NCBI RefSeq assembly: GCF_003860125.1
Contig: NZ_RQYL01000013.1
Span: forward strand, 1-64,000
Source of the DNA: Fretibacterium sp. OH1220_COT-178
GTDB lineage: Bacteria > Synergistota > Synergistia > Synergistales > Aminobacteriaceae
Length of the DNA: 64,000 nt
Direction of reading: 5' to 3'
Under the pieces are notes generated by a model. The model saw only the letters and a program-made list of their open reading frames with translations, did not search any database and was not told the origin of the DNA. Both the position numbers and the translations under genes were made by a program. How positions within the stretch are numbered: the first letter of the stretch is position 1; each line of letters begins with the position of its first letter. Below are positions 6,115 through 62,552 of the stretch, piece after piece.

Positions 6115-6171
6115 GGTCCGGCCGGCGCCGACGGCGTGAATTTCCGAGAGGGAACGGAAGGGAGAACGGAT

Positions 6172-6846: not shown

Positions 6847-6913
6847 CAGGCAGGCGCCGGCCCGATGCAACACCTAAAAGCGCCTGAAACGACGCTCGCC
6901 GGCAGGCCTGCTT

Positions 6914-6931
6914 ATCGCCCCTGTGGGCGAT
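6914..6931 (+). other. Small hairpin between operon genes
   Basis: ATCGCCC and GGGCGAT form a 7-bp stem around CTGT in the 152-base gap between the corrinoid protein and the first UroD-like gene. No T-run follows; it could stabilise the upstream mRNA. Confidence 0.4.
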
Positions 6932-6998
6932 GGGGCAACGGAGGGTCCCCTGAGCGGGGATTCGAGGGAGGGCAGGATCTGCGGAAGGAGGGAACAGC

Positions 6999-21771: not shown

Positions 21772-23016
21772 TCAGGCTACGCACTCCCCCAGTTTCCACA
21801 CGGACCTTATCGGCCGCGCTCCGGAGGCGTAGGCAAAGACCGCCGGCGTCTCGCCGTCCAGCACCAGGAAGTCGGCCATCTTGCCCGGCTCGATGCTGCC
21901 CGCCTCGCGAGACATCCCGATCGCCCAGGCGGCGTTCAGGGTCGAAGCCGTCAGGGCCTCCTCCGGGGTCAGTTCCATCCCCATGACGGCGAGGCTGAAG
22001 ACGAAGGGCATGGACTCGCAGAAGCACGACCCCGGGTTCAGATCCGTCGCCAGCGCAACGGGGACCCCCTTCTCGATCATCGTCCGGGCGCGGGCGAACG
22101 GCTTGCGCAGGCTGTACGCCGTCGCCGGCAACAGCACGGCCACAACGCCCTCCTTCGCCATGGCCGCTATCCCCGCATCGGAGGCGGCCAACAGATGCTC
22201 GGCGGAGACGGCGCGCATCTCGCCCGCCATCGCGGCTCCGCCCAAGTCGTGCACCTCGTCGGCATGGACCTTGAGACGGAACCCCCACTCGCGGGCGCGC
22301 TGCAGAACCCGGCGGCTTTGTTCGACGGAGAAAACCCCCTCCTCGCAGAAGATGTCGCAGAACCGGGCGATCCCCTGTTCCGCAATCGCCGGAAGCATGT
22401 CCTCCCTCAAAAGGCTCACGTATCCCTCCGGGTTGTCCTTGAACTCCTCCGGAACCGCGTGGGCCCCCATGAAGGTCGGGACGACGGTCTGCGGCGTCTC
22501 CCGGCCCAAGCGGTCGATCACGCGCAGCATCCGGAGCTCCGTCTCCGTGTCCAGACCGTAACCGCTCTTGATCTCGATCGTCGTGGTCCCGTAGAAGAGC
22601 GTCGAGGCCAACAGGGCGCGGGAAAAGTCGAACAGCTCCTGGTCCGAGGCCGACCGGACCGACCGGACCGAGGAGAGGATTCCGCCTCCCGCCTTGAGGA
22701 TCTCCAGGTACGACTTGCCCTCGAGGCGCATGGAGAACTCCGTCTCGCGTCGGGCGGCGAAGCAGGCGTGCGTGTGCGGATCGACGAACCCCGGGATCAC
22801 CGCAGCCCCTTCCAAATCGAACTCCTGGTCCGGGCAACGGTCCTCCAGGCACTTTTCCACATCCGCCATCGCCCCCACAGCGGCAAACTGCCCGTTATCG
22901 ACCAGAAAACAGCCGTCCTCGTAAAAGGCCAGCTTACCCTGTTCTCCCCCCGCAGCCGGATCCCTGCCGGTGAGGGGCGTATAGATGCGTCCGTGCTTGA
23001 AAAGCTTCAAGGTCAT
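21772..23016 (-). CDS. hutI: Imidazolonepropionase
   Basis: A 414-residue zinc amidohydrolase that opens the imidazolone ring in histidine degradation to give N-formimino-glutamate. The metal-binding PGFVDPHTH motif has His81 and His83, further ligands lie in KVHADEVHD and the late DLNPGS segment, and length matches the family. ATG 23016 has GAGGAGGGAG upstream; the frame extends to a GTG at 23040 that would place the ribosome site inside the gene. It follows hutH on the same strand 145 bases downstream, with a terminator between. Confidence 0.95.
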   Translation of the reverse strand: MTLKLFKHGRIYTPLTGRDPAAGGEQGKLAFYEDGCFLVDNGQFAAVGAMADVEKCLEDRCPDQEFDLEGAAVIPGFVDPHTHACFAARRETEFSMRLEGKSYLEILKAGGGILSSVRSVRSASDQELFDFSRALLASTLFYGTTTIEIKSGYGLDTETELRMLRVIDRLGRETPQTVVPTFMGAHAVPEEFKDNPEGYVSLLREDMLPAIAEQGIARFCDIFCEEGVFSVEQSRRVLQRAREWGFRLKVHADEVHDLGGAAMAGEMRAVSAEHLLAASDAGIAAMAKEGVVAVLLPATAYSLRKPFARARTMIEKGVPVALATDLNPGSCFCESMPFVFSLAVMGMELTPEEALTASTLNAAWAIGMSREAGSIEPGKMADFLVLDGETPAVFAYASGARPIRSVWKLGECVA

Positions 23017-23054
23017 AGCCGCGACTCCCTCCTCGAACACAAAAATTTAAAGAC

Positions 23055-23161: not shown

Positions 23162-24697
23162 CTAGGCCAGAGATCCGACGGCCCCCTCCGCCGCCTCCAG
23201 GACCGCGCCGCTCATGGTCAATTCAAGGACGCGCTCGATGAGCGGGTGGAGGTATTCGTCCTTCTTCAGGAAGGGAACCACGGAACGGATCCGGGCGTGC
23301 GCCGCCGCCGTCCCCTTCCCCGGCTTCAGGTCCCCGAGGCTGAAATCCAGGGCCTGGGCCCCCATCAGCAGCTCCACCGCGACGATCTTGCGGACGTTTT
23401 CCAGAATCGTCACGGCCTTTCGGGCGGAGTAGCCCCCCATGGAGACGTGGTCCTCCTGATTCGCAGACGTCGGGATGGAGTCCACGCACGACGGGTGGGC
23501 CAGCACCTTGTTCTCGGAGACCAGCGAGGCGGAGACGTACTGCGGGATCATGAACCCGCTGTTCAGTCCGCTGCTCTCGATCAGGAAGGGGGGCAGGCCG
23601 GAGAGCGAGGCATCGACCATCCGAGCCTGACGCCGCTCGGAGATGCTGCCGAACTCGGCCAGCGCGATCCCGAAAAAGTCCATGGCCAGGGCCAGCGGCT
23701 CGCCGTGAAAGTTGCCGCCGCTCAGCGCCTCCTCGTCGTCCGGGAAGATCAGCGGATTGTCCGTTACGGAGTTGATCTCCGTCTCCAGGACGCCGCGGAC
23801 GTAAGCCAAAGCGTCTCTGCCGGCTCCATGCACCTGCGGCACGCAGCGCAGGGAGTAGGCGTCCTGCACGCGATCGCCCTTGTACTTCTCGACAATCCCG
23901 CTGCCCTCAATCAGGCGGCGCAGGTTCGAGGCGACATCGTTCTGTCCTCTGAAGGGCCTGAGCGCATGGGTGCGGGCATCGTAGGCATAGGGGACGCCGT
24001 GCAGGGCCTCCATGGACATCGCCGCCGCAACGTCGGCGGTTCGGACCAGCCTTTCGGCGTCCAGCAAGGCCAGTGCGCCCACCGCGTTCATGACGGTGGT
24101 CCCGTTGTTGAGGGCCAGCCCCTCCTTGGCCCCAAGCGAGATCGGAGCGAGCCCCGCATCCGTCAGCGCCTCGGCGGTGGGAACGACCCTGCCCCGATAC
24201 TCCGCCATCCCCTCCCCCATGAGGGCCACGGCCAGATGCGAGAGGGGACAGAGGTCCCCGGAGGCCCCGACCGATCCCTGGCAAGGAATCAAAGGATGAA
24301 TGCCCGCATTCAGCAGGTCGGCGAGGGCGGACAGGGTCTCGAGGCTGATGCCCGAATTTCCCCGGCTGAGCGTGTTGATCCGCAGCAGCATGATGGCCCG
24401 CGTCACGTCCACGGGGTAGGGGTCCCCGACGCCGCAGGCGTGGCTGCGCAGCAGGTTCTCCTGAAGCCTGCTGCGATCCTCGCGCGAGATGCGGACCGAG
24501 GCCAGATCGCCGAACCCCGTGGTGATGCCGTAGACCGCCCGATCCGAGGCCGCCCAGCGCTCCACGAGGGCAGCCGCCCTCTTCACGGCCCGGACCGCCC
24601 CCTCTCCGAGGCATACCTTGTCTCCGTGTCGCGCAACGCGCTCAATGTCGTCAAATTTCAAAGAAAGTCCATCCAGGGCGATCGTGCGTCCGCTCAA
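23162..24697 (-). CDS. hutH: Histidine ammonia-lyase
   Basis: A 511-residue lyase that removes ammonia from histidine to give urocanate. The MIO-forming triad Ala145-Ser146-Gly147 is intact in GSVGASGDL, and YGITTGFG near 56-63 carries the catalytic Tyr. The chosen start is TTG 24697, preceded by a perfect AGGAGGTG seven bases away, giving a normal family N-terminus. An upstream in-frame ATG at 24787 would add 30 residues unlike the family. With hutI it forms the first and third steps of the histidine pathway; the urocanase gene is at 60537. Confidence 0.95.
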   Translation of the reverse strand: MSGRTIALDGLSLKFDDIERVARHGDKVCLGEGAVRAVKRAAALVERWAASDRAVYGITTGFGDLASVRISREDRSRLQENLLRSHACGVGDPYPVDVTRAIMLLRINTLSRGNSGISLETLSALADLLNAGIHPLIPCQGSVGASGDLCPLSHLAVALMGEGMAEYRGRVVPTAEALTDAGLAPISLGAKEGLALNNGTTVMNAVGALALLDAERLVRTADVAAAMSMEALHGVPYAYDARTHALRPFRGQNDVASNLRRLIEGSGIVEKYKGDRVQDAYSLRCVPQVHGAGRDALAYVRGVLETEINSVTDNPLIFPDDEEALSGGNFHGEPLALAMDFFGIALAEFGSISERRQARMVDASLSGLPPFLIESSGLNSGFMIPQYVSASLVSENKVLAHPSCVDSIPTSANQEDHVSMGGYSARKAVTILENVRKIVAVELLMGAQALDFSLGDLKPGKGTAAAHARIRSVVPFLKKDEYLHPLIERVLELTMSGAVLEAAEGAVGSLA

Positions 24698-24813
24698 TTC
24701 GTGACACCTCCTGCAAGGAAAGGGCAAGGCAAGGCCTCGCAACGATGAAAACGGTAACGTCCCGTCCGCGGTACAGTGCAATTCCATTCACTACCCCCAA
24801 AAACCTGAACCCG

Positions 24814-29172: not shown

Positions 29173-29427
29173 TCCGGGCCCCCTTTCGAAAACGGCTCAA
29201 CCGACGACACGCCCCTCTCCGCGGGGAAAGAGCGCCCCTCTCCCCCATTCCATGATACAATAATCCAGCAGAAATTGGATATTTCAAGCAATTTATCGCC
29301 CCGTCTATTGTAGCGTTAAAGTATCAAATTGACCATTACGGATGTGCCGGGTCAACTCCAGAGTCGATTTTTCAGGGACATTTGCAGTGTTCCGCCGAAA
29401 GGGGAATTCGAAAGGAGGCTTCGGAAC

Positions 29428-34709: not shown

Positions 34710-34714
34710 GCGGC

Positions 34715-34743
34715 CACGGGGCGGCCTTTGCGGCCGCCCCGTG
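34715..34743. terminator. Convergent terminator-like hairpin
   Basis: A 12-bp stem (CACGGGGCGGCC and its complement) with a TTTGC loop follows mobB by six bases and faces folD. No T-run follows on either strand. Confidence 0.6.
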
Positions 34744-34779
34744 TGACAGTGCGTAAAAGGAAGAGATCGCGAGTCGGAC

Positions 34780-35631: not shown

Positions 35632-35762
35632 GTCCTTCGTCTCCCTTCTCGGATCTCAACGATCGGGCGCGGTGCTCCGGCGCACCGCTTTCCTTATCCT
35701 ACCTTAAAGTACGATAACACAAAATCCTGAAAAAGGGGCGCCGGATGCAGCGGTTCGCGGAC

Positions 35763-35796
35763 AAAAAAAGGCCCCGGCCAGAACTTTTCCAGGACC
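35763..35796 (-). terminator. Intrinsic terminator of the rhodanese gene
   Basis: Minus strand: GGTCCTGG pairs with CCGGGGCC (two G-U pairs) across an 11-base loop and is followed by seven T. It begins two bases after the stop codon. Confidence 0.75.
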
Positions 35797-35798
35797 CT

Positions 35799-37103
35799 TC
35801 AAGGACAAGGAGAGGCGTCGCCGACCTCTCGTCGGGCTCCGCCGGGCCCTCCGGTCTCGACCGGGTATCCGGAATTGCTCCAGCGAATCCAGCCGTCGCT
35901 GTACTTCGAGACGTTGTTCAGCCCCATGGCACGGGCATAGAACCAGACCTCGGCGGCCCTCCAGCCCATGCCGCAGGAGAAGATCAGGTGGCGGCTCCAA
36001 TCGATGCCGCAGCGCCGCCAGAGGCTCAGGATCTCCGAGTCCTGCCGCATCGTGTCGTCCACGTTGCGGTAATAGTCCAGGGAGTGGGGATCGCCCAGGC
36101 CCGCATACCCCAAAACGGCCCCGGGAATGTGTCCCACGATCTCCTGATGGTCGTAGCCCGAGACGTCCCCGCGGTACTCCTCCAGGGAGCGGATGTCCAC
36201 GAGCTGCGACGTCCCCCAATCCGAGCGGAGCGCCTCGATCTCGTCGATCGTCCTCAAAACCTCCCCACGGCCGGGGACGGCGATGCCGAAGGACGATGCC
36301 GGCACGGGCCGGACCGCCTCGGTCGACAGGGCGTATCCCCGTCGTTTCCAGGCCCCCAGTCCGCCGTTGAGGACCCGAACGTCCCGGACTCCCAGATAGT
36401 GCAGGGCCCACGCCGCACGGCACATGGCCATGGGCGAGGCGCCGGTCACCACCACGCAGTCCTCCGAGGTGATGCCCAAAGCCAAAGCCGCTTCCTCCAG
36501 GGCTTTGGGATCGGCCAAGCGATACCGCGTCTCGGGCACGAGGTTTTTGTCGCTGTACAGATGGTCCACATCCAGATGGACCGCTCCGGGCACGTGTCCG
36601 AGTGCATGGGAGACCTCGGCGCCGCCCTTGCTGGCCTCGACGACCTTGACGCCCCGGCCGGAGTCGAAGGTCTCGGCCGGGCGTCCCTCGAGCCGCTCCC
36701 TGAGCGCGAAGGCGGACACCAGGAGTCCGTAGCCGGGATAGCGCTCCAGAGGACGGCCGTCGGCCCGAGCCCAGATTCCGAGGTCGAAGGAGGAGATCCT
36801 CTTGAAGCCTCGTCTCCGGAGCCAATCGCCCAGCCGGGCCGTCTCCTTCCCTCCGACGTCGTAGAGGAGCAGCTCCCGATCGGGAGTCATCCCCTTCTCG
36901 GTCAACGCCTCGGAGAGGCGCTCCTCCAGATCGTCCCGGCAAACGTCCAGCCATCCCGCATCGAAGCTCACCGCCCCGGGCGCGTGCCCGCCCCATGAGG
37001 GGCACCCATCGCTCCAGCCGTTGTACAGATCGCTTCGGCGGGCATCCACGAGCAAGGCGCCGTCACGACGCAGGGCGTTCCTCAGCTCCTCGGCGTTCAG
37101 CAT
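35799..37103 (-). CDS. Triple-rhodanese-domain sulfurtransferase
   Basis: A 434-residue protein with three rhodanese-like domains. Each domain has a DxR-type entry (LLVDARRSDLY, HVPGAVHLDVD, LVDIRSLEEYRG) and a loop where the persulfide Cys should be. Only the third keeps the Cys (IFSCGMGWRA near residue 380); the first reads YDVGGKET and the second VTGASPMA. So the protein probably has one catalytic and two structural or docking domains. ATG 37103 has GGAGG before it. It follows a BCCT transporter gene on the same strand and may handle sulfur released from a thiol-bearing substrate; that link is inferred. Confidence 0.82.
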   Translation of the reverse strand: MLNAEELRNALRRDGALLVDARRSDLYNGWSDGCPSWGGHAPGAVSFDAGWLDVCRDDLEERLSEALTEKGMTPDRELLLYDVGGKETARLGDWLRRRGFKRISSFDLGIWARADGRPLERYPGYGLLVSAFALRERLEGRPAETFDSGRGVKVVEASKGGAEVSHALGHVPGAVHLDVDHLYSDKNLVPETRYRLADPKALEEAALALGITSEDCVVVTGASPMAMCRAAWALHYLGVRDVRVLNGGLGAWKRRGYALSTEAVRPVPASSFGIAVPGRGEVLRTIDEIEALRSDWGTSQLVDIRSLEEYRGDVSGYDHQEIVGHIPGAVLGYAGLGDPHSLDYYRNVDDTMRQDSEILSLWRRCGIDWSRHLIFSCGMGWRAAEVWFYARAMGLNNVSKYSDGWIRWSNSGYPVETGGPGGARREVGDASPCP

Positions 37104-37215
37104 CGTCAAGCCTCCTTTTTTTCCCAGACCCTTCACGACGGCCGGGCCCCCGAGCCGAACCCGGGGACCCGCCGATACGCGTTCCGTGCCGTTGTTTTCC
37201 CTGCGCTCCTCCGGG

Positions 37216-38778
37216 CTACTCCACCACGTCGTCCACCAGGAAGAGCTTGACCGCGGAGCACACCTGGAGGATGAAGATGAAGAGGACCACGAAGCCTCCG
37301 GCCGCCCCGAGGGATTTGACCCCCTCGACGCCCTGTTCGGTGCCTCCGAACGCCGCCATGATGATGGCGATGGCGCCGATGATCACGCCCCAGAGCACCT
37401 TGAGGTAGCCCGGCGCCTCGGTTCCGATGGGGACGTCCTTGATGCACATGGAGGAGATGCTGTTGGTCGTGGCGTTCGCCGCCGTGACGTAGGAGATGTA
37501 GATCACGAAGAGGTTGATCGGGACCACGATGTAGCCCAGGTTGAAGGGCAGCACCCTCAGGAACTCCCAGAGCGCCGTCACGGCGTTGGAGTTCTTGATG
37601 GTCCCGACCAGGTCGACGCCTCCGGCCATCTGTATGGACAGCGCCGAGTTGCCCCAGATGGAGAACCAGACGAGCCCGAAGACGGCGGGCAGCACGAGGT
37701 TCACGATCAGGAACTCGCGGATCGTCCGCCCTCGGGCGATCATGGCCAGGAAGATGCCCGTCACGGGGGCGTAGGCCACCCACAGCGCCCAGTCGTAGAG
37801 GGTCCAGAACTGGTTCAGAGGCACGCCGGCGATGTCCACGGGGTCCAGGGACCAGAGCCAGAAATTGTTCAGCCACGTGGCCAGCCCGGCGGTGGCGTTA
37901 CGCACGATGAAGAGCGACGGGCCGGTGATCACCAGAAGGATCATGAGGCCGTAATAGAAATAGGCATTGAGACCCGCGATCTTCTTCATGCCCTTGTCGA
38001 GCCCCACGTAGGTCGACGTGGTGAAGCTCAGCACGATGAAGATTCCCGTGACGACGAAGAGGGACAGCGTTTTCTGCAGGCCGTAGATGTGCTGCACCCC
38101 CGTGGTCAGCAGGGTGATGCACATCGTGAGCCCGGAGGTCAGGCCCAGGATGATGGCCATCATGGAAAGGGTGTCCACCAGACTGGCCGTCACGCCTCGC
38201 GCGACCCAATCCCCCAACAGGGGCTTGAGGGTCGAGGTCACGGCCAGGCGATCCTTCTTGTTGTAGTAGATGTAGGCCATGAGCACGCCGCTCAGGGCGT
38301 AGATGGCGTAGGGGATGAACGTCCAGTTGTGGAAGCACCGGGCCATGGCGAACTGGGCGGCCTGAGGGGTTCCCGGGGCGATGCCCAGGGCGTCCAGCTC
38401 CCGATAGACGTTGCCGTAATAGATCAGGGGCTCGTTGACGCTCCAGGTGACGATGCCGACGGCTACGCCGCCGGTGAGCGTCATGGCGAACCAGGTCCAG
38501 AAGGGATACTTGGGCTCCGCATCCCGGCCGCCGATCCGGACGGACCCGATCTTGGAGAACATCAGGTACAGCACCAGCAACAGGGTGACGAGGGTGACGA
38601 GGGCATAGGCCCAGCCGAAGGTGAGCAGAGTCCATCGGAAGAAGCTGCGCGCGGTCGCGGTCATCGACTTGTTGTCCCACAGGCCCCAGACGGCCGCAGC
38701 CCCTATCAGAACGAAACCGGGAATGAAGACCTCCCACCTCAGCTCTCGTTTGTCCTGAATTCTTGTCGCGTCACTCAT
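37216..38778 (-). CDS. BCCT-family (betaine/carnitine/choline-type) transporter
   Basis: A 520-residue inner-membrane transporter with about 12 hydrophobic segments. Family signatures include LMFSKIGSVRIGG near 80-92 and the conserved region WTLYDWALWVAYAPVTGIFL with ARGRTIREF after it. The usual aromatic box for trimethylammonium groups is only partly conserved (YDWALW rather than FYWAWW), so the ligand may differ from glycine betaine. ATG 38778 has AAAGGAG upstream. Its neighbours suggest import of a quaternary-ammonium amino-acid derivative; the substrate is not known. Confidence 0.88.
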   Translation of the reverse strand: MSDATRIQDKRELRWEVFIPGFVLIGAAAVWGLWDNKSMTATARSFFRWTLLTFGWAYALVTLVTLLLVLYLMFSKIGSVRIGGRDAEPKYPFWTWFAMTLTGGVAVGIVTWSVNEPLIYYGNVYRELDALGIAPGTPQAAQFAMARCFHNWTFIPYAIYALSGVLMAYIYYNKKDRLAVTSTLKPLLGDWVARGVTASLVDTLSMMAIILGLTSGLTMCITLLTTGVQHIYGLQKTLSLFVVTGIFIVLSFTTSTYVGLDKGMKKIAGLNAYFYYGLMILLVITGPSLFIVRNATAGLATWLNNFWLWSLDPVDIAGVPLNQFWTLYDWALWVAYAPVTGIFLAMIARGRTIREFLIVNLVLPAVFGLVWFSIWGNSALSIQMAGGVDLVGTIKNSNAVTALWEFLRVLPFNLGYIVVPINLFVIYISYVTAANATTNSISSMCIKDVPIGTEAPGYLKVLWGVIIGAIAIIMAAFGGTEQGVEGVKSLGAAGGFVVLFIFILQVCSAVKLFLVDDVVE

Positions 38779-38856
38779 CGAACTCGCTCCTTTCAATCCA
38801 ACGATCGTCAATCCAACGATTCGGTCTCGAGACCGTCCCGATTTGCAGCCGCGCCC

Positions 38857-40251
38857 TCATTGCCAGTGCAGCAGGACCGCACCGACGGTAAAAGCCGCCG
38901 CGACCAACCAGGAGATCAGCACGTAGGGCATGATGAAACGAAGCCACTTCGAAAAGGGGACCCGAGCATACGTCAGGTACCCCACCAGGACAGCCACGGC
39001 AGGGTAGCACAGATTGGACAGCCCGTCTCCGAACTGGAAGGCCAATATGGCCGTCTGTTTGCTGACCCCGAGGATCTCCGCCATGGGGAGCATGATCGGC
39101 AGGGTCGCCATGGCCTGTCCGCTTCCGGAGGGAATGAAGAAGTTTATGACCGTCTGCACGGCGAACATGGCCGACGCCGTAAACGTCGTAGGCACGTCCT
39201 TCAGAGGCGACGAAAGCGCGTGAATGACCGTATCGATGACCCCGGACTTCTCCATGATGACGGACAGCGCCCTCGCGAGGCCTATGGAGAGGACTCCGGC
39301 ATAGATCGAACGCCCTCCCTCCACAAAAACGTCCGCAATGCGGTTCGGTGTATACCGGGCCACAAGGCCGGCCGCAACGGCACCGAGAAGGAAGAAGGCC
39401 GAACGCTGCGCGTTCTTCCATCCCCAGTACACCGCTCCATAGACCGTGAGGCCGAGAACGGCCAGAAAAATCAACAAAATGACCTTATGAGCGAAAGTAA
39501 AGGGACATTCCTCGAGGTCGACGTGTTTCTCCTCCAGCACGCCATCGACCTTCCACAAGACGCTGCTCGACGGACGCCTCTTGACCCTGGCGGCGTACGG
39601 CAGGATGTAGGCCAGCGATACGGCCCACAGCACCACGAGGACCAAGGTCCTGTACCCCATCCCCGAGAAGATGGGGAGCCCCGCCATGGTCTGGCCGGTC
39701 CCGACGGTCCAGGGGTTGGTGGGGCCGGCGGTCCAGCCTATGACCACGGCCACCACAGGAGTGGCTATGCCGACGATGACGTCATACCCCAGGGCCAGCG
39801 CTATGGTCACGCAGATGGGAGCGAAGGGAATGGCCGCCTCCAGCATGCCGGGGAAGGCGCCGAGAATGGCGAAAAAAGAAAAAATCAGGACCAGAACCCA
39901 CGAGGAACGGTTGGAACCGAAACGCCGGGCGAAAGCCGCCACGACGCCCGTAATCGCTCCCGTGCTCTCGAAGACCTTGATCGATCCGCCAATCATCAAA
40001 ATCATGAAAATCAGAGGTCCCGCAGCGCTGAGTCCTTGATGAACGGTGCTGACAAAATCGACAAAAGAAAAAGCCGGCCGTTCCGTGTAATGAAACGAAA
40101 GCGGATCGATGACCTTCTTTCCGTTCACCATCACCGACTCGTACCGTCCCGCCGGGGTCAGCATCGATACCGCTCCCACCACGACGATGAGCAGCATGAG
40201 CAAAACAATGGCGTTCGGCATGAGGCTCCGTTTCGAGGCATTGCGCTCCAT
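38857..40251 (-). CDS. YfcC-family membrane carrier
   Basis: A 464-residue integral membrane protein of the YfcC/DcuC-like ion transporter superfamily, with about 12 hydrophobic segments. Recognisable stretches are MLTPAGRYE near residue 30, a GxFPGMLEAAIPF-like loop near 130, and FFIPSGSGQAMATLPIM near 375, a hallmark of this group. Members import peptides, short-chain acids or basic amino acids. It lies 78 bases upstream of the BCCT gene on the same strand. Confidence 0.85.
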   Translation of the reverse strand: MERNASKRSLMPNAIVLLMLLIVVVGAVSMLTPAGRYESVMVNGKKVIDPLSFHYTERPAFSFVDFVSTVHQGLSAAGPLIFMILMIGGSIKVFESTGAITGVVAAFARRFGSNRSSWVLVLIFSFFAILGAFPGMLEAAIPFAPICVTIALALGYDVIVGIATPVVAVVIGWTAGPTNPWTVGTGQTMAGLPIFSGMGYRTLVLVVLWAVSLAYILPYAARVKRRPSSSVLWKVDGVLEEKHVDLEECPFTFAHKVILLIFLAVLGLTVYGAVYWGWKNAQRSAFFLLGAVAAGLVARYTPNRIADVFVEGGRSIYAGVLSIGLARALSVIMEKSGVIDTVIHALSSPLKDVPTTFTASAMFAVQTVINFFIPSGSGQAMATLPIMLPMAEILGVSKQTAILAFQFGDGLSNLCYPAVAVLVGYLTYARVPFSKWLRFIMPYVLISWLVAAAFTVGAVLLHWQ

Positions 40252-40439
40252 GTCCAGATCCGACCTCCTTTGTCCTCACCAAGTCCTTCTCCGATACAAT
40301 GCCGCATCTTGTTTTCGGAACGCGGGCAAAGTGGGGTGCCGATACCCAATCAAACCGAAGCCGGAGGCTTTGCATGTACTTCCGAAGGCTTACGGAATGA
40401 AGTCATACGCTATTCATATTTCTGGGGATTCGTCGTGTT

Positions 40440-41441
40440 TCAGTGAAAGTCCACCTGGGCTCCCAGCCCCATCTCCCGCGCCTTGTCGTAGATCAGGCTC
40501 GCCAGGGCGATGTCGTTCAGCGAAAGCCCGCGGTGCCAGAACAGGATGCGCTCCCGGTCGTTCTCGCGGCCCGGCTTCTTGCCCGCCACAATTTCGCCCA
40601 GCTCCGAGTGGAGGGTTTTCTCCGTCAGCTTGCCCTCGTCGACGTGGCGCCTCAGAGAACCGAACTTGCCGCCCTTGCACTGGCCCCAGTCGTCGACCAC
40701 GATCTTGTCCATCACGTCGGTCAGCGAGAACTCCACGGCGCTGATCGTCCCATAGGGAACGACGAAGGTTCCCGGGGTCACCCACTCCGTCTTCAGCAGC
40801 GGTTCGGGCGTCGTCAGGCGCGTGGCCTCCACCATGATATCGGCCCCCACCAGGCACTCCTCGCTCGTCTCGACGGCCTTGACCTCCTTGCCCAGGCGCT
40901 CCGAGAGCCGCTTGGCGAAATCGTTTCTGGACTCCGGCCGACGGCTGTTCACCCGGATCTCCTCGAAGTCGAAGATGTTGTCCAACAAAACGACGTTCCA
41001 CCAGGACGTGCCGCGCGATCCCAGATGCCCCAGAACCTTGCACTTCTTCTTCGCCAGATGCTTGGCCCCCAGAGCCGTGAGCGCCCCCGTCCGCATGCAG
41101 GTGATCTCCGTGCAGTCCACGATGGCCCTGGGGACGCCCGTCCGAGGATCGTACAGCGTGATCAGAGCCAGCTCCGAGGGCAGGCCGACCTTGTAATTGT
41201 CCACGTAGTCGCCCACGACCTTGACTCCGGCCATGTCCAGCGGGGCGATATAGCCGCGGAGGATGTTGAAATGCCCGTTGAAGCTCGGATCGGGGATCAG
41301 GTGCTCGCGCGGTTCGATCACGACCTGTCCCTGTCCCTGCGCCAACAGGCTCTTCTCGACGGCTCCGACGATCTCGTCGTCCGTCAGGGCCATCCTCTCG
41401 ATATCGCTCCCACTGATGAAATGGATCTTCAAAGCACTCAT
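40440..41441 (-). CDS. Ornithine cyclodeaminase / mu-crystallin family protein
   Basis: A 333-residue Rossmann-fold protein of the OCD/mu-crystallin family, whose members are NAD(P)-dependent cyclodeaminases, imine reductases or amino-acid dehydrogenases. The family core is seen in ALITLYDPRTGVPRAIVDCTEITCMRTGA. The nucleotide loop reads LGHLGSRGTSWW, unlike the usual GxGxxA, so cofactor use may differ. ATG 41441 has AGGAGG before it. It follows the lyase-like gene on the same strand by 200 bases and could act on the lyase product, but the reaction is unknown. Confidence 0.82.
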   Translation of the reverse strand: MSALKIHFISGSDIERMALTDDEIVGAVEKSLLAQGQGQVVIEPREHLIPDPSFNGHFNILRGYIAPLDMAGVKVVGDYVDNYKVGLPSELALITLYDPRTGVPRAIVDCTEITCMRTGALTALGAKHLAKKKCKVLGHLGSRGTSWWNVVLLDNIFDFEEIRVNSRRPESRNDFAKRLSERLGKEVKAVETSEECLVGADIMVEATRLTTPEPLLKTEWVTPGTFVVPYGTISAVEFSLTDVMDKIVVDDWGQCKGGKFGSLRRHVDEGKLTEKTLHSELGEIVAGKKPGRENDRERILFWHRGLSLNDIALASLIYDKAREMGLGAQVDFH

Positions 41442-41641
41442 GACGGCAACCTCCTCATACGAAGAATAAGAAAGACACAATCCTGCGGCAAAAATTCAGG
41501 ACTCCGCACACGGACGGCCCGGCAACTAAAGCGCGTCGTGCGCAACCCCTCGGGGGGCACCCCCGGAAACTCCCAGGGGGCATCGTCTCAAAAAACGCGG
41601 CAGCATCCGAAACCGAACGGCCTCATCGCTCCGACAGGCTC

Positions 41642-43141
41642 TTAGAAGGAGGGAAGCAGGTCCCCCGACGCCAGGAGCTCCCGCGCCTTCTCGATATCCC
41701 GGCTCAGGTTCCTGTCGCGGTCGTAGAAGGGCACGGCCCTGCGGAAAATTTCATAAATTTTCCGGGTCCCCTCGCCCAGGGGTTTTTTGCCCCTGAGGTC
41801 CACGGCCTGGGCCGCGTGCATCAGCTCGATGCCCAGAATGTAATGGAGGTTCCCGACGATCCGGGAAGCCTTGTCCGCGGCCAGGGGAAGGTTGCTCGCG
41901 TGATCCTCGATCGTCCCCGACACCGCGTAGTAGTCCATCGAGGAGGGATTGGCCCAGAGCCTGTTCTCCGCGTCCAGCATCGTGAAGGTCTTCTGGACCG
42001 TGGTGAAGGCCAGCACCTCGACCTCCTTGGGGGTAAGGGCCCGGGTGAGCTTGGTGAAGGCGGGATCGGCGAGCTTGAGCATCCGGTAGCAGGACATCTT
42101 CGACAGGTGGCTGAGGGCGGACGCCGCCATCTCGACCGCCAGGGCCAGGCTCAGCGTCTCGAAGTTGGGGCTGACGTAGCTCCTGCCGGCCTCCAGGAGG
42201 ATGCAGGGATTGTCGTCCGTGGCGTTGATCTGAACCTCCAGAATGGAGCGCACGTAGTCGAGCGCGTCGTAGACCGTTCCGGAGACCGCGTGGGCGCACC
42301 GGAAGCACAGAGGGTCCTGCAGCGCCCGGGCCGGGTCGGGAAGATGCAGAAAGCTGCCCTCCAGCAGCGCCCGACACTCCCAGGCGGAGCGAATCTGGCC
42401 CGCAAGGCCGCGGACGCCGTTCACGTCCTCCCGCAGGGACTCCATGACCCCGTTGAGCCCCTCGAGGCTGAGGGCAAAAACGCCGTTGGCCGTAGCGACC
42501 AGCGTCTCTGCATCCCTGAGAAACAGCGCCGCGAGGGCCTCGCCCTGAGCGTTGGACGAGAGGATCCCCAGTCCGTCCTTGGGCCCCAGCACGACGGGCT
42601 TCAGCCCACAGAGCTTCAGGGCCTCCCCCGCAGGAAGCACCCTGCCGCCGTACTCGACCGTGCCCTCCCCGATGAAGGCCAGTCCGATATGGGCCAGGGC
42701 CGTGATGTCCCCCTCGCCCACGGACGAGCGCCTGGGGACCTGCGGATGGATGCCCTCGTTGAGGAAGGCGCAGTAGAGCTCCAGAATCTCGACCGAGATG
42801 CCCACGTGCCCGAGCAGCGCCTTGTTCAGGCGGATCAGCATCATGGCGCGGACCTCCTCGGAGGAGCTGAGGTCCCCGACCCCAACGCTGTGGGTATTCA
42901 GCACGTTTTTGTTGTACTGCTCGAAGAAGGACGAATCGAACTCGGTATCCTTGTTCCACCCGACTCCGCGATTCAGGCCGTAAACGGGCTTGCCGGCGGC
43001 CGCCATATCGAACAGGATCTGGCGCGAAGCCATGGCGCGCTCCTTGGCCCGCTCCTGGAGGGCCACCTTCCTGCGGTCGTAAACCACCGAATAAAGATCG
43101 GCAAGCGAGAGATCTTTCCCCGTCAGCACCAAGGGCTCCAT
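41642..43141 (-). CDS. Aromatic-amino-acid-lyase homologue lacking the MIO triad
   Basis: A 499-residue member of the histidine/phenylalanine ammonia-lyase superfamily. The fold is well kept: VYGLNRGVGWNKD with the catalytic-type Tyr54, LNTHSVGVGD, and QINATDDNP near 310. The segment that should read G-A-S-G-D, which cyclises to the MIO electrophile, reads SVGEGDI (Gly142-Glu143-Gly144-Asp145), one residue shorter and without Ala-Ser-Gly. The DNA there is clean, so this is a real difference and not a frameshift. The enzyme therefore cannot use MIO chemistry. I recall that ergothionase, a trimethylamine lyase, belongs to this fold without MIO, and the BCCT transporter nearby would fit, but this is unverified. 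Confidence 0.85.
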   Translation of the reverse strand: MEPLVLTGKDLSLADLYSVVYDRRKVALQERAKERAMASRQILFDMAAAGKPVYGLNRGVGWNKDTEFDSSFFEQYNKNVLNTHSVGVGDLSSSEEVRAMMLIRLNKALLGHVGISVEILELYCAFLNEGIHPQVPRRSSVGEGDITALAHIGLAFIGEGTVEYGGRVLPAGEALKLCGLKPVVLGPKDGLGILSSNAQGEALAALFLRDAETLVATANGVFALSLEGLNGVMESLREDVNGVRGLAGQIRSAWECRALLEGSFLHLPDPARALQDPLCFRCAHAVSGTVYDALDYVRSILEVQINATDDNPCILLEAGRSYVSPNFETLSLALAVEMAASALSHLSKMSCYRMLKLADPAFTKLTRALTPKEVEVLAFTTVQKTFTMLDAENRLWANPSSMDYYAVSGTIEDHASNLPLAADKASRIVGNLHYILGIELMHAAQAVDLRGKKPLGEGTRKIYEIFRRAVPFYDRDRNLSRDIEKARELLASGDLLPSF

Positions 43142-43273
43142 CGATTTTCCTCCCGTTTTCGGAATATAAGCACCGCAGACGCGGCGTGCCCGCTCGGGTT
43201 GTAAGGGCGGGCACCCCCCGAACTCGTCGGAGGAAGGTCCGAAATGCCGCCATCGTCTGCCGCAACAGAATCG

Positions 43274-43301
43274 ATTTTAGCGTGATCCGGCGGGCAAACA
43301 A
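43274..43301 (-). promoter_or_regulatory. Probable promoter of the lyase-like gene
   Basis: Minus strand: TTGTTT (43301-43296), 16 bases, TAAAAT (43279-43274), about 130 bases before the start codon. Confidence 0.45.
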
Positions 43302-43322
43302 AATACAAAAATTTTATGCGGT

Positions 43323-43384
43323 CGATAGGTTTTTTCCTATCGCACGAAAAGGCCCGGCTCCCGAGGCCGGGCCTTTTCGTGCGA
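43323..43384 (-). terminator. LysR-gene terminator overlapping a second hairpin
   Basis: A perfect 19-bp stem (43340-43358 with 43366-43384) contains AAAAGGCC/GGCCTTTT and could stop transcription in either direction. A second hairpin, CGATAGG-T6-CCTATCG (43323-43342), shares three bases with it, so the two may be alternatives. Confidence 0.75.
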
Positions 43385-43400
43385 CGACGCATGGGCCCCC

Positions 43401-44294
43401 TCAGCGGCCGAAGCTGCCGTCAAACGCCTCCACCGCCTCGATAAAGACGCGCACCCCCCGGGAAAGAAACTTGTCGCGGTGCCAGGCCAGACAGAAAAAA
43501 CGTTCCATGGGCTCGCAGTCCTTCAGCGGGACGATCCTGAGGCGGTCGGCGGCGAGGTCCTTCCGGATCAGACGCGACGAGATGACGGTGACGCCCAGCC
43601 CCTCCGAGACCGCGTTGACGATGGCCTCCGCGTTGTTGTACTCGCCCCGGACGTTCAGGGTCAGCCCCCTGGCCCGAACGGCCTCCTCGAACCGAGCCCG
43701 CGTTCCGCTGCCCTTCTCCCTGAGGATGAAGGGAAAGACGCAGGCCTCTTCCAGGGTCAGATCCTCGCGCTCCGCCAGAGGGTGGGCGGCGTCGCAGACG
43801 AATACGAGGGTGTCGGGGATCATGGGACGGGTGAGGATCTCCCTGCTCCGAATCCTCCCCTCGACGAGCGCGATGTCCAGATCGTTGTTCAGCAGTTTGC
43901 GCTCGATGACCCCCGTATTGTTGACGTACAGATACACGTTGACGTCCGCATGGTCGTGCATGATCTGCCGCACGATACCGTTCAGCACGCAGGTCCCCAC
44001 CGTCACGGTGCCGCCGACCCGGATCAGGTCCATCGCGTTGTGCTCGCGCATGGCCTTTTCCAGGCTGGTCTTGGCCTGGAGCGTGTGCGTGGCGTAGCGC
44101 AGCAGCAGGCGCCCCGAATCGGTGATCTTCAGTTCCTTGCTGAACCGTTCGAACAGCTTCGTCTCGTAGACCTTTTCAAGCTCCGCAATGACCTGGCTGA
44201 CGGTCGGCTGGGAAATGTGCAGGTTCGATGCGGCACGGCTCATGGTCCTGGTCGTCGCGACCTCGACGAAGATCCGAAGGTGTCGAAGCGTCAT
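43401..44294 (-). CDS. LysR-family transcriptional regulator
   Basis: A 297-residue regulator with the winged helix-turn-helix at residues 1-60 (LRIFVEVATTRTMSRAA through SQPTVSQVIAELE) and a two-lobed ligand-binding domain after about residue 90. It is encoded immediately upstream of the lyase-like gene on the same strand, separated by a strong terminator. It probably controls the lyase-to-rhodanese gene group in response to the substrate or a product, inferred from position. Confidence 0.9.
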   Translation of the reverse strand: MTLRHLRIFVEVATTRTMSRAASNLHISQPTVSQVIAELEKVYETKLFERFSKELKITDSGRLLLRYATHTLQAKTSLEKAMREHNAMDLIRVGGTVTVGTCVLNGIVRQIMHDHADVNVYLYVNNTGVIERKLLNNDLDIALVEGRIRSREILTRPMIPDTLVFVCDAAHPLAEREDLTLEEACVFPFILREKGSGTRARFEEAVRARGLTLNVRGEYNNAEAIVNAVSEGLGVTVISSRLIRKDLAADRLRIVPLKDCEPMERFFCLAWHRDKFLSRGVRVFIEAVEAFDGSFGR

Positions 44295-44464
44295 GTTGTC
44301 CTCCCCCTCGATACTCGGTTTCCAAAGGCGCCTCTACTCCTCCGAGGACGCGAAAATGGGGAAAAGCCCGCGATTTCCTGCCGGAATGATCCGCGAGCCC
44401 TCCCCCATCCATTATGCCATGCCCGGGCCGCTGGGGACTCTATCCGCCCCCTACGGGCCGATTT

Positions 44465-45304
44465 TTAAGAACGCGCGTCCTTCAGGTAGGCGAACCAGTA
44501 GGCCAGCCCCACGAAGAGCGTGCCGCCCAGGATGTTCCCAAGGGTGACGGGAAGCAGGTTCGCCAAGAACATGGACCTCCAGTTCAGTGCCTCCATCTGC
44601 TGAAGTGTGACCCCCAGCTCCAGAGCCTTGTCCATGAACAAGGGGTCGGCCTTGGCCATGATCCCCGCGGGAATGTAGTACATGTTCGCGACGCTGTGCT
44701 CGAAGCCCGAGGTCACGAAGAGCCAGATGGGGAAGAAGATCGCCAGGACCTTGCCCGCCACGTCCTTGGCCCCGTAGGCCATCCCGACCGCGAGGCAGAC
44801 CAGCCAGTTGCAGAGGATCCCCATGATGAAGGCCTTCCTGAAGATCAGCCCCGTCTTGGAGGCCGCAATCTTTATGGTGAAGCCCCCCAGAAGGCCCTCG
44901 GTGTATTTGAGCTGCCCCGTCTTGAGGACCAGGTAGGCCACCAACACGGAGCCGATCAGGTTGCCCACATAGACGACAATCCAACTGCGCAACAGGGCCC
45001 TGAGGGTAATCCTGCGCTCCGCCAGAGCCATGACCATCAGGCTGTTTCCCGTAAACAACTCTCCCCCAGCCACCACAACCAGGATCAGCCCCGTGGCGAA
45101 GAGCGCCCCGGCCAGAGACTTGCCCAGACCGACGGACTTGATGGTGTGAATGGCCTCGTTGGACCCCTGAGAGGCGAACGCGATGAACGCCCCGGCCAAA
45201 ATCCCCAAAACCAGCTGTTTAGATATGGAAAGTTCCGCTTTGCTCTGTCCCACGCTGACGACATACTCCGCGATCTCGGCCGGACTCAGATAACCGTTCT
45301 GCAC
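44465..45304 (-). CDS. Formate/nitrite channel, FocA/NirC family
   Basis: A 279-residue membrane protein with six hydrophobic helices. Family motifs are GILAGAFIAFASQGS near 34-48, GGELFTGNSLM near 80-90 and FILP-type turn sequences such as MGILCNWLVCLAVGM near 160. It moves formate or a similar monovalent anion across the inner membrane. With a formate dehydrogenase in the same window, formate is the most likely substrate. It stands alone between two hairpin-bounded gaps. Confidence 0.9.
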   Translation of the reverse strand: MQNGYLSPAEIAEYVVSVGQSKAELSISKQLVLGILAGAFIAFASQGSNEAIHTIKSVGLGKSLAGALFATGLILVVVAGGELFTGNSLMVMALAERRITLRALLRSWIVVYVGNLIGSVLVAYLVLKTGQLKYTEGLLGGFTIKIAASKTGLIFRKAFIMGILCNWLVCLAVGMAYGAKDVAGKVLAIFFPIWLFVTSGFEHSVANMYYIPAGIMAKADPLFMDKALELGVTLQQMEALNWRSMFLANLLPVTLGNILGGTLFVGLAYWFAYLKDARS

Positions 45305-45402
45305 GCAAAGTCACTCTCCCTTCGCAAGACTCGAAAAAGCACCTACGACCGGAAAAACGCAACTTAGACGATACAAACAATCTCTCGAAAATCCGATTCC
45401 CC

Positions 45403-45448
45403 TTCGGTGTTCTCCCGGACCGGATTTTCGGCCCGGGAGAACACCGAA
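45403..45448 (-). terminator. Hairpin after the peptide-transporter operon
   Basis: A perfect 16-bp stem (TTCGGTGTTCTCCCGG and its complement) with a 14-base loop lies about 100 bases after the binding-protein stop. T residues are not adjacent. Confidence 0.6.
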
Positions 45449-45551
45449 CGCTTCTCAGGGAAATGCCCGTCGTGTCGGCTCTACCCCTCAGAGGTGACGG
45501 AAGGCTGGGGTGTGGCGCTGCCCCTCGAGACCCGGGGCGAAAAAACGGAGG

Positions 45552-47150
45552 CTATTCCACGATCTCGGCGCCGCGGAAGAACACCCAATTGCGAGGAGAG
45601 ATGTAGATGCCCTTCACCCGGGCGCTCTGCATGTAGGGCGTCGAGTAGAAGTAGATCGGCAGCACCGGCAGGTCGCGCATCAGGATCGCCTCGGCCCTGT
45701 GCAGGGAATCGATGCGCTTGGCCCGGTCCATCTGCCTGAGGGAGTCCTTCACCAGCGCGTCGTACTCGGCGTCGGAGAAGTTGGCCACGTTCTCGGGAAC
45801 GCCCGTCTGCCACAGCTCCAGCAGGCTGCCCGCATCGAAGAAGTCCACGATGTAGGCGTGCCGCGCCACGTCGAAGTTCTTCTGGATGCGCGTGTCGATG
45901 AACACCTTCCACTCCTCGTTCGAGAGCTCCACCTCCACGCCCAGGTTCTGCTTCCACATGGCCTGGAGCGCCTCCGCGACGGCCTTGTTGATGGGGTTCA
46001 GGTTGTACTTGTAGGTCACCTTGGGAAAGCCCTTGCCGTCCGGGTACCCGGCCTCGGCCAACAGCTTTTTGGCCGTCTCGACATCGGCTCTCTCCGGCAG
46101 ATACCCCTTGTCCTCCGCGCGGAAGTCCTTGCCGGATTCGACGCCGGGGATTCCGTAGGGGATGAACGCGACGGCCGGCTTCTGGCCGCCCAGCGTCACC
46201 TTCTCCACCATCGCGGTCCGGTCGATCGCCAGGTTGAAGGCCCGGCGCACCAGCGGGTTGTCGAACGGCGGCCTCTTGACGTTGAAGACGGAGAAGGAGG
46301 TGCCGAGCGTCGGGGCCACCTTCGCCTCGCCGCTCTTGACGAGCTGCGGCGTCATCTGCGGCGGAATCCGGTCGATCAGGTCGACCCTGCCCGCCTTGAA
46401 CGCGGCCAGGGCCGTGTTGGTGTCCGTGATCATCACCAGACGGAGCTTGTCCACCTTCACGTTGTCCGCGTCCCAGTAGTGGGGGTTCTTCATCAGGGTC
46501 ATCTCGCTGTTGTGCTTCCACTCCGTGATCATGAACGGCCCGTTGCAGGGGGTCGTCTCCGGCCTGGAGCTCCACCCGCGCGGGTCCTTCTCCACCACTT
46601 CGGCCCGCGCCGGATAGAAGATGTGGTAGGACAGGTAGTCCAGCATCAGCGGGGACGGATACTCCAGATCGATGCGGAACGTGGCGTCGTCCACCGCGAC
46701 CAATCCCACGTCCTCGGCCTTGGCCTTCTCGTTGAAGAACGCCTCGCCGTTCTTGATGAAGAAGCCCAGGTGGGCGTAGGGGGACGCGTTTGCGGGGTCG
46801 AGCGCCCTCAGAAACCCGTAGCGGAAGTGCTCCGCCGTCATCTGCGTCCCGTCCGCCCACTTGAGGCCGGGACGCAGATGGAACGTCCAGGACAGGCCGT
46901 CCTCGGCCACCTCCCACCTCTCCGCACACCCCGGCTCCGGCGCATCGTCGAAGCCGATGCGCACCAGCCCCTCGAAGAGGTTGAAGATCACGTTCGACCC
47001 GTCCACCGCGTTGTTCAGCACCGGGTCGATCGTCCGGGGCTCGACCCCCAGGTTGTAGACGACCTCCCTCTCCGCCGCGAATCCCGCACCGGCCAGCGCC
47101 GGAGAGAACACCGCCGCCAGCACCAGAAGCCACTGCATACACCTTCTCAT
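45552..47150 (-). CDS. ABC transporter substrate-binding protein, family 5 (oligopeptide type)
   Basis: A 532-residue periplasmic binding protein with a signal peptide (MRRCMQW, hydrophobic core, cleavage near GFAA at about residue 25). Mature sequence begins REVVYNLGVEPRTIDPV, the classic OppA/DppA start, and DGLSWTFHLRPGLKWADGTQMTAEHF is family typical. AGGAGG precedes ATG 47150. It is the last gene of the five-gene operon. Ligands in this family are peptides, but also nickel, opines or sugars; none can be chosen from sequence. Confidence 0.92.
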   Translation of the reverse strand: MRRCMQWLLVLAAVFSPALAGAGFAAEREVVYNLGVEPRTIDPVLNNAVDGSNVIFNLFEGLVRIGFDDAPEPGCAERWEVAEDGLSWTFHLRPGLKWADGTQMTAEHFRYGFLRALDPANASPYAHLGFFIKNGEAFFNEKAKAEDVGLVAVDDATFRIDLEYPSPLMLDYLSYHIFYPARAEVVEKDPRGWSSRPETTPCNGPFMITEWKHNSEMTLMKNPHYWDADNVKVDKLRLVMITDTNTALAAFKAGRVDLIDRIPPQMTPQLVKSGEAKVAPTLGTSFSVFNVKRPPFDNPLVRRAFNLAIDRTAMVEKVTLGGQKPAVAFIPYGIPGVESGKDFRAEDKGYLPERADVETAKKLLAEAGYPDGKGFPKVTYKYNLNPINKAVAEALQAMWKQNLGVEVELSNEEWKVFIDTRIQKNFDVARHAYIVDFFDAGSLLELWQTGVPENVANFSDAEYDALVKDSLRQMDRAKRIDSLHRAEAILMRDLPVLPIYFYSTPYMQSARVKGIYISPRNWVFFRGAEIVE

Positions 47151-60452: not shown

Positions 60453-60536
60453 TCTGGAGAAGAAATAACGAAAAAATAACGCTGTGAGCTTAAAATGTAC
60501 AAAATAGCTTCCCGACAGGGAAAGGAGATGCTTGCG

Positions 60537-62552
60537 ATGAGGGACGGAACGGTAACGATGGCTTTGGACTTTCCGAACGGGCTGCCCAAGCGGCCCGCGT
60601 TCGACCCCCAATACCGCCGCGCGCCCGACAGAGGGCACACCCTGAACGAACGGGAGACGGTGCTGGCGCTCAAGAACGCGCTGCGCTACATCCCGGAACG
60701 ATTCCACAGGGAACTGGCGCCGGAGTTTCTGGAGGAGCTGCGCACCCGCGGCCGGATCTACGGCTACCGCTTCCGCCCCGAGGGGCGGCTTTGGGGAAAG
60801 CCCATCGACGAGTACAAGGGGCTCTGCACGGAGGGCCGGGCGTTCCAGGTGATGATCGACAACAACCTGGACTTCGACATCGCGCTCTACCCCTACGAGC
60901 TCGTCACCTACGGCGAGACGGGACAGGTGTGCCAGAACTGGATGCAGTACCTCCTCATCAAGAAGTACCTGGAGGTGCTGACGCCCGACCAGACGCTTGT
61001 CGTGGAGTCCGGACACCCGCTGGGGCTGTTCCGCTCCAAGCCCTCGGCGCCGCGCGTCGTCATCACCAACGCGATGATGGTGGGGCTCTTCGACAACCAG
61101 GAGGAGTGGCACCGCGCCATGCAGCTCGGCGTGGCGAACTACGGGCAGATGACCGCGGGCGGCTGGATGTACATCGGCCCTCAGGGCATCGTGCACGGGA
61201 CGTTCAACACGGTGCTGAACGCTGGGCGCATGAAGTTCGGCGACACCCCCGACGTGCTCAGGGGACGCCTCTTCGTCACCTCGGGCCTGGGCGGCATGAG
61301 CGGCGCCCAGCCCAAGGCGGCCGACATCGCGGGCTGCGTATCGATCACGGCCGAGGTGGACGAGTCCCGCATCGAGACCCGGCACAGCCAGGGCTGGGTC
61401 AAGGAGATCGCCAGGACGCCCAAGGAGGCGTTCGACCGTGCTCACGCCCTGATGAAGGGATCCGAGGTCCGCTCCATCGCCTTCCACGGCAACGTGGTGG
61501 ACCTGCTCCAGTACGCGGTGGACAACCATATCGGGATCGACCTGCTCTCCGACCAGACGAGCTGCCATGCGGCCTACGACGGCGGATACTGTCCCGCGGG
61601 CATCACCTTCGAGGAGCGCACGCGCCTCCTGAAGGAGGATCCCGCCAAGTTCCGCGTCCTGGTGGACGAGACGCTGAGGCGCCACTTCAAGCTGGTCAAG
61701 GCCCTGGTCGACAAGGGCACGTACTTCTTCGACTACGGCAACGCCTTCCTCCGCGCGGTCTTCGACGCGGGCGTGAAGGAGGTGGCGAAAAACGGACAGG
61801 ACACCCACGAGGGCTTCATCTTCCCCAGCTACGTGGAGGACATCATGGGGCCCATGCTCTTCGACTTCGGCTACGGGCCGTTCCGCTGGTGCTGTCTGTC
61901 GCGGAACCCCGAGGACCTGAGAAAGACCGACAGGGCGGCGATGGACTGCATCGACCCGAACCGCCGTTTCCAGGACAAGGACAACTGGGTCTGGATCCGC
62001 GACGCGGAGAAGAATGCCCTGGTGGTCGGCACCCAGTGCCGCATCCTGTACCAGGATGCCGAGGGCCGCGTGCGCATCGCGCTGAAGTTCAACGAGATGG
62101 TCCGCAACGGGGAGATCGGCCCGGTGATGCTGGGCCGCGACCATCACGACGTCTCCGGGACGGACTCCCCCTACCGGGAGACGTCCAACATCAAGGACGG
62201 CAGCAACATCATGGCGGACATGGCCACGCAGTGCTTCGCGGGCAACGCGGCGCGCGGCATGAGCCTGGTGGCGCTGCACAACGGAGGCGGCGTGGGCATC
62301 GGCCGGTCGATCAACGGTGGGTTCGGCCTGGTGCTGGACGGCTCGTTCCGGGTGGACGAGATCATCAAGAGCGCCATGAGCTGGGACGTCATGGGCGGTG
62401 TGGCGCGAAGGGCCTGGGCCCGCAACGAGAACGCGCTCTCGACCGCCGCGGCGTTCAACGAGAAGCGCACGGGCGAGCACATCACCCTGCCCTACATCGC
62501 CGACGAGGCGTACCTGACGGAGCTGGTGGGAAATCCATCGACGGGAGGCTGA
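60537..62552 (+). CDS. hutU: Urocanate hydratase, long variant
   Basis: A 671-residue NAD-dependent hydratase for the second step of histidine breakdown. It is about 110 residues longer than the Pseudomonas enzyme. Family stretches include SGLGGMSGAQPKAADIAG, SDQTSCHAAYDGGYCP, GYGPFRWCCLSRNPEDL and VALHNGGGVGIG. The Cys preceding the GPFRW motif in the Pseudomonas enzyme (FCRGIGPFRW) appears to be replaced here (FDFGYGPFRW). ATG 60537 follows AAAGGAG; ATG 60528 is a near alternative. It is 36 kb from hutH and hutI in this window. A relative, thiourocanate hydratase, has the same fold, so the substrate is not fully certain. Confidence 0.88.
   Translation: MRDGTVTMALDFPNGLPKRPAFDPQYRRAPDRGHTLNERETVLALKNALRYIPERFHRELAPEFLEELRTRGRIYGYRFRPEGRLWGKPIDEYKGLCTEGRAFQVMIDNNLDFDIALYPYELVTYGETGQVCQNWMQYLLIKKYLEVLTPDQTLVVESGHPLGLFRSKPSAPRVVITNAMMVGLFDNQEEWHRAMQLGVANYGQMTAGGWMYIGPQGIVHGTFNTVLNAGRMKFGDTPDVLRGRLFVTSGLGGMSGAQPKAADIAGCVSITAEVDESRIETRHSQGWVKEIARTPKEAFDRAHALMKGSEVRSIAFHGNVVDLLQYAVDNHIGIDLLSDQTSCHAAYDGGYCPAGITFEERTRLLKEDPAKFRVLVDETLRRHFKLVKALVDKGTYFFDYGNAFLRAVFDAGVKEVAKNGQDTHEGFIFPSYVEDIMGPMLFDFGYGPFRWCCLSRNPEDLRKTDRAAMDCIDPNRRFQDKDNWVWIRDAEKNALVVGTQCRILYQDAEGRVRIALKFNEMVRNGEIGPVMLGRDHHDVSGTDSPYRETSNIKDGSNIMADMATQCFAGNAARGMSLVALHNGGGVGIGRSINGGFGLVLDGSFRVDEIIKSAMSWDVMGGVARRAWARNENALSTAAAFNEKRTGEHITLPYIADEAYLTELVGNPSTGG

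Follow-up and report, generated by a model that had tools for sequence, protein, structure and literature searches.

In ergothionase (ergothioneine trimethylamine-lyase), the adjacent carbon is deprotonated and the quaternary ammonium group leaves as trimethylamine. A quaternary ammonium group departs readily by itself, so this elimination needs no electrophilic cofactor such as MIO. The enzyme destroys the dietary antioxidant ergothioneine and yields trimethylamine. Maurer et al. in 2019 are reported to have defined four essential catalytic residues in ergothionase, and PDB entries 6s7j and 6s7q (a ligand complex) are the Treponema denticola ergothionase of that work. That ergothionase has no MIO is stated in PMC13405746 (2026). 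From a BLASTP search started with the Burkholderia enzyme, this paper concluded that only a few genera have ergothionase; it also warns that divergent homologues might be missed, and cites reported ergothionase activity in C. symbiosum. In the gut ergothioneine pathway of Feng et al. (JACS, cited in PMC12771579 and PMC13405746), the C-S bond is cleaved by a xanthine-oxidase-family enzyme. PMC12771579 describes a xanthine oxidase homologue of a gut bacterium that, in the breakdown of ergothioneine, cleaves an aromatic C-S bond reductively.

The window, which is the whole stretch of 64,000 nucleotides analysed here, carries a lyase gene with an intact frame, coding-type composition and GGGAGG just 5' of its ATG (Table 1). 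A preliminary description of this DNA had stated that the protein keeps the motifs of the lyase fold, including a tyrosine of the catalytic type; in agreement with this, the protein matches Pfam Lyase_aromatic with 438 bits, and the tyrosine is Y54, within YGLNRGVGWNKD. It had also read the cofactor loop as SVGEGD instead of SVGASGD, which would make MIO impossible, and had pointed to a true HutH with an intact triad in the same window. Both observations were borne out, the second by a HutH match above the NCBIfam cut-off (Table 1). Residues 139 to 145 read SSVGEGD, and the Ala-Ser-Gly triad is missing in all 80 fetched relatives as well, which have GEGD, GEAD, GAAD, GQAD or similar loops; therefore, its absence is neither a reading error nor chance. 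Judging from its sequence, the window lyase cannot form MIO. The family-specific motifs are nevertheless kept, namely, YGLNRGVGWNKD, QK384 and IE412D. Residues Y54, N57, G59, V60, G61, N63, K64 and D65 are invariant in 25 relatives, and Q383, K384 and E412 are likewise invariant. The family-invariant candidates for catalytic residues (Y54, K64, K384 and E412) are all present in the window lyase.

Table 1. Positions of the lyase, its diagnostic residues, the surrounding and downstream genes, and the loci with GSVGY-L lyases
Feature	Position	Strand	Remarks
MIO-less lyase, ergothionase by homology	41642..43141	minus	499 aa; ATG at 43141, stop at 41642
Cofactor-loop codons 139-145	42707..42727	minus	SSVGEGD replacing GSVGASGD of HutH; from translation and alignments
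Y54...K64 of motif YGLNRGVGWNK	42950..42982	minus	common to ergothionase; HutH shares only the Tyr
K384, QK motif (HutH: QY)	41990..41992	minus	invariant in 25 relatives; lost only in a separate subclade
E412, IED motif	41906..41908	minus	equivalent of the HutH QED Glu
LysR-type regulator, upstream of lyase	43401..44294	minus	related LysR (32-36%) beside lyase in L082, L085
OCD/mu-crystallin family enzyme	40440..41480	minus	likely ATG at 41441; directly follows the lyase gene
YfcC/DcuC-family transporter	38857..40251	minus	65% identical copy beside paralogue on C37
BCCT betaine-type transporter	37216..38811	minus	likely ATG at 38778
Multi-domain rhodanese	35799..37136	minus	likely ATG at 37103; closest among solved structures: EanB 197 bits, then YnjE 175 bits
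True HutH, intact Ala-Ser-Gly	23162..24787	minus	called ORF, with the match beginning at 24682; 660.8 bits, NCBIfam cut-off 539.15
HutI imidazolonepropionase	21772..23040	minus	461.8 bits, cut-off 298.15
HutU urocanase	60495..62552	plus	sole copy in genome
GSVGY-L lyase loci	L009:5390-6979 (= C5:59428-60903); L010, L013, L017, L028, L039, L046
GSVGY-L lyase loci, further	L060, L061, L067, L068, L070, L082

The best PDB match of the window lyase is 6s7j, with 62% identity over the full length, no gaps, an E value of 1e-209 and 700 bits; the next best is a HutH (E 5.6e-69, 237 bits). Identities fall to 48 to 49% for three paralogues in the same genome and to 35% for HutH, and the NCBIfam hutH equivalog gives 362.9 bits, under its cut-off of 539.15. 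In a maximum-likelihood tree of 46 lyases (support given as two-figure values), the window lyase grouped with T. denticola ergothionase and the Anaerosphaera and Acidaminococcus members (L010 and L017) with a support of 100/97, and all ergothionase-type sequences formed one group (100/100) apart from the MIO-bearing lyases. The AlphaFold model, with a pLDDT of 89.6 and residues 59 to 64 poorly modelled, had 6s7j as its top Foldseek match (TM 0.97), and VIA-align gave a Z of 51.7 for 6s7j, with 1.2 A over 493 residues, and 44.6 for HutH. At 57 compared positions, the protein has approximately the same residues as the T. denticola enzyme. The preliminary description had considered an MIO-free elimination of a trimethylammonium group to be plausible, and this gains support, being what ergothionase does and ergothionase being the closest match in PDB, fold and clade. 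The alignment it had recommended showed that the T. denticola loop is also MIO-less, and the outcome that it had named as contrary evidence, a grouping with some MIO-less family that has another function, did not arise. Since the family is known and a structure has been solved for it, the chemistry of the window lyase is not new.

To place the lyase among its relatives, 84,980 species genomes were scanned with an alignment of four paralogues as query. At least 151 loci with ergothionase-type relatives were found, 80 of which were fetched; together with the four of the window's own genome, 84 loci were surveyed, counting as neighbours the genes within four of the lyase. A xanthine-oxidase-family large subunit was a neighbour in 55 of the 84 loci and a BCCT transporter in 53, the usual order being xanthine-oxidase small, medium and large subunits followed by the lyase and the BCCT, as in C. 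symbiosum (L032). Because BCCT, lyase and xanthine-oxidase genes stand together, and given the C-S cleavage described in PMC12771579, this common operon can be read as a series of import, removal of trimethylamine and desulfuration. At the window cluster, a BCCT gene is beside the lyase, but xanthine-oxidase genes are absent from the cluster; the clusters of most relatives, also of the nearest ones in the tree, do have them. Contigs C5 and C37 of the same genome carry xanthine-oxidase-family genes next to the paralogues, and those genes are placed among the lyase-linked ones. We also observed an operon type without xanthine-oxidase genes in Paenibacillus, Neobacillus and relatives (L052, L056, L062, L063, L065, L071, L075 and L078), where lyases with a GAAD loop adjoin a conserved protein of about 390 residues that a family search did not identify, often with a HutU homologue and an OpuC-type importer.

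Around the window lyase, the same-strand order is FNT channel, LysR regulator, lyase, OCD enzyme, YfcC/DcuC transporter, BCCT transporter and multi-domain rhodanese. The BCCT protein is up to 64% identical to those adjoining other ergothionase-type lyases, and is a probable importer of the betaine substrate. The OCD protein is 63 to 70% identical to lyase neighbours in L082, L085, L088 and L089, with 70% for Cuneatibacter and 63% for Bordetella, Achromobacter and C. symbiosum, each encoded beside an ergothionase-type lyase. In Polaromonas, the OCD gene is again close to the lyase, in a LysR-lyase-OCD arrangement that includes a YeiH-family gene. The lyases in the loci with an OCD partner belong to other subclades, 41 to 46% identical to the window lyase; because the OCD gene is kept beside them, this partnership across phyla is probably functional. 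The rhodanese keeps the Cys in its CGMGWR loop, and its membership of the lyase cluster is suggested by position only. It was ruled out as a conserved lyase partner, since no homologue was found beside the lyases of the other 83 loci. The FNT channel (44465-45304) was rejected as a hydrosulfide channel, as its FocA score (187 bits) exceeds that of the 3tdo group (95 bits). No Rfam elements were found in positions 34000 to 46000, and a promoter scan gave one weak match, at chance level.

Overall, it is highly probable that the window gene encodes an ergothionase, for which the family, clade, fold, motif conservation, lost triad, betaine-transporter neighbour and downstream genes of the genome provide the support; from these, we infer its substrate, the catalytic roles of single residues and the pathway flux. 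In the proposed route, the BCCT transporter would import ergothioneine, and the lyase would remove the proton beta to the trimethylammonium by acid/base catalysis and expel trimethylamine, giving thiourocanate. Desulfuration to urocanate would follow, probably by the xanthine-oxidase-family enzyme encoded beside the C5 or C37 paralogues; the 2-thiouracil-desulfidase family PF04463 was rejected as the desulfuriser, being missing from the genome. Urocanate formed in this way would be taken by HutU and, through HutI, could be converted to glutamate. Since the trimethylamine methyltransferase MTTB (PF06253) was not found in the genome, an MttB-type use of trimethylamine is not expected.

Two further regions of the window, both on the plus strand, were observed. 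At positions 6136 to 9820, three ORFs form a methyl-transfer cluster: one encodes an MtbC/MtgC-like corrinoid protein that scores below cut-offs, one a URO-D methyltransferase-like protein, and the third begins like a ferredoxin-type corrinoid activator; the genome is nonetheless without MTTB. At 29329 to 32172, a formate dehydrogenase frame contains one in-frame TGA (30475-30477, in the context CART-U-HAPTVAGL), with a hairpin predicted just downstream, and this codon likely encodes selenocysteine.

An identity of 62% is insufficient to fix the substrate, and members of this family may use ergothioneine sulfonate, S-methyl-ergothioneine or other betaines. In addition, since the genome has three further paralogues, one or more of its ergothionase-type copies may have shifted substrate. 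The window lyase could be a member of the ergothionase family that works without MIO but mainly on a betaine related to ergothioneine, for example ergothioneine sulfonate, S-methyl-ergothioneine or hercynine. This would fit the unusual neighbours (OCD enzyme and rhodanese), a cluster without a xanthine-oxidase desulfhydrase, an OCD gene so similar to the partners of lyases from quite different subclades, the Polaromonas arrangement and the four paralogues in one genome, which suggest divided substrates. We consider it unlikely, however, given that the protein lies inside the T. denticola ergothionase clade, agrees with that enzyme at nearly all compared positions, and has clade mates that carry the standard operon. 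Much less probable still is a dead pseudoenzyme or structural paralogue of HutH, as the loss of the triad needed for ammonia elimination might suggest, since the ergothionase-conserved residues are all retained, the frame and composition are those of a coding gene, the betaine transporter is conserved alongside, and the nearest protein of solved structure was deposited as an enzyme that degrades ergothioneine.

Besides the putative ergothionase of the window, the lyase superfamily has five other members in the genome: the three paralogues, the true HutH and a lyase on C5 with the loop GSVGY-L. The paralogues have the loops SIGEGD (C22), SVGEAD (C37) and SLGEAD (C5), and the Lys and Glu motifs are kept in all four ergothionase-type copies. 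Their neighbours are a BCCT gene on C22, YfcC and a xanthine-oxidase gene on C37, and a complete xanthine-oxidase gene set on C5. By their loops, five lyases of this genome are MIO-less, four of the ergothionase type and one of the GSVGY-L type.

The GSVGY-L proteins formed their own group in the tree (98/99) and are a separate, apparently uncharacterised MIO-less type, in which the QY and QED motifs of HutH are kept and the Ala-Ser-Gly stretch is deleted. The C5 member is 43% identical to the window HutH versus 32% to the window lyase. Independent loss of MIO in the two lineages is not claimed, as the AU test does not reject a single clade (p 0.50). At 13 of the 84 loci, a member of this type shares an operon with an ergothionase-type lyase; in Anaerosphaera, for example, the operon comprises xanthine-oxidase genes, lyase, BCCT and GSVGY-L lyase. 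Two plasmids carry such lyases, with the loop GSVGY-L or GSLGY-L and annotated as aromatic amino acid ammonia-lyase or hutH. On Klebsiella aerogenes pKA04-3 (L135:4902-6434), the MIO-less lyase adjoins genes for an OpuAC glycine-betaine-type binding protein and a ProV-type ATPase, and hutU, hutC and the formimidoylglutamate deiminase gene are close by; on a Priestia megaterium plasmid (L133:277-1815), hutU and hutI are in the vicinity of the lyase, and MFS transporters are encoded in between. The lack of MIO, the supply of HutU and the company of a betaine importer suggest that this type converts hercynine into urocanate and trimethylamine, and it is predicted here to do so. To our knowledge, a hercynine trimethylamine-lyase giving urocanate directly has not been reported.

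Two other groups were observed. The otherwise invariant Lys384 is lost (QD, QN or MN) in an ergothionase-type subclade comprising L039, L046, L050, L061, L066 and the second lyase of L038, which suggests yet another reaction; several of these adjoin GSVGY-L lyases. A Haloarcula plasmid lyase next to hutU (L136:971-2452), annotated as aromatic amino acid ammonia-lyase, has the loop GSADN without Ala-Ser-Gly on a long branch, and is possibly another MIO-less type.

The window gene itself is ordinary, its family being already known. Less ordinary are the four ergothionase-type lyases in one genome, the cross-phylum OCD partner, the adjoining EanB/YnjE-like rhodanese and the second MIO-less type. 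In comparison with the few genera of PMC13405746, many of the loci found here are in gut or oral anaerobes (Peptoniphilus, Blautia, Clostridium, Acidaminococcus and Synergistales), often with the lyase in an operon with xanthine-oxidase-family genes. Such lyases are annotated as histidine or aromatic amino acid ammonia-lyases in public databases, and a check for Ala-Ser-Gly would correct many annotations, including those of the Klebsiella and Priestia plasmids. We treat three points as leads rather than as results: the unrecognised breadth of the ergothionase-type lyases, the OCD partner and the second MIO-less type. A joint reading, put forward tentatively and somewhat doubtful, is that the five MIO-free lyases serve different betaines, that the GSVGY-L type is a hercynine trimethylamine-lyase, and that the window cluster serves a variant form of ergothioneine catabolism, where the OCD enzyme, possibly with the EanB/YnjE-like rhodanese, replaces the molybdenum desulfhydrase.

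Compared with known systems, the window lyase resembles HutH (P. putida 1b8f and the window HutH) in fold, architecture, the YGxxxG Tyr and the ED-motif Glu, but differs in lacking Ala-Ser-Gly, in having QK instead of QY, and in its low identity and NCBIfam score. The rhodanese resembles EanB, the anaerobic ergothioneine synthase of C. limicola, and E. coli YnjE in its multi-domain build and C-G-x-G-W-R loop, with the approximate scores of Table 1; however, it has CGMGWR rather than CGTGWR, is assignable to neither, and has no lyase linkage in the other genomes examined. With the gut ergothioneine pathway of Feng et al., the genome shares an ergothionase-type lyase, lyase-linked xanthine-oxidase homologues and HutU, although its xanthine-oxidase genes are on C5 and C37 and not beside the window lyase. 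The closest system is the T. denticola ergothionase, with the loop SSIGEGD, the same YGLNRGVGWNKD, QK and IEDH motifs and the same fold. The loci of its clade mates consist of xanthine-oxidase genes, lyase and BCCT, whereas the window has OCD, YfcC, BCCT and rhodanese genes around the lyase, in a genome with three further paralogues.
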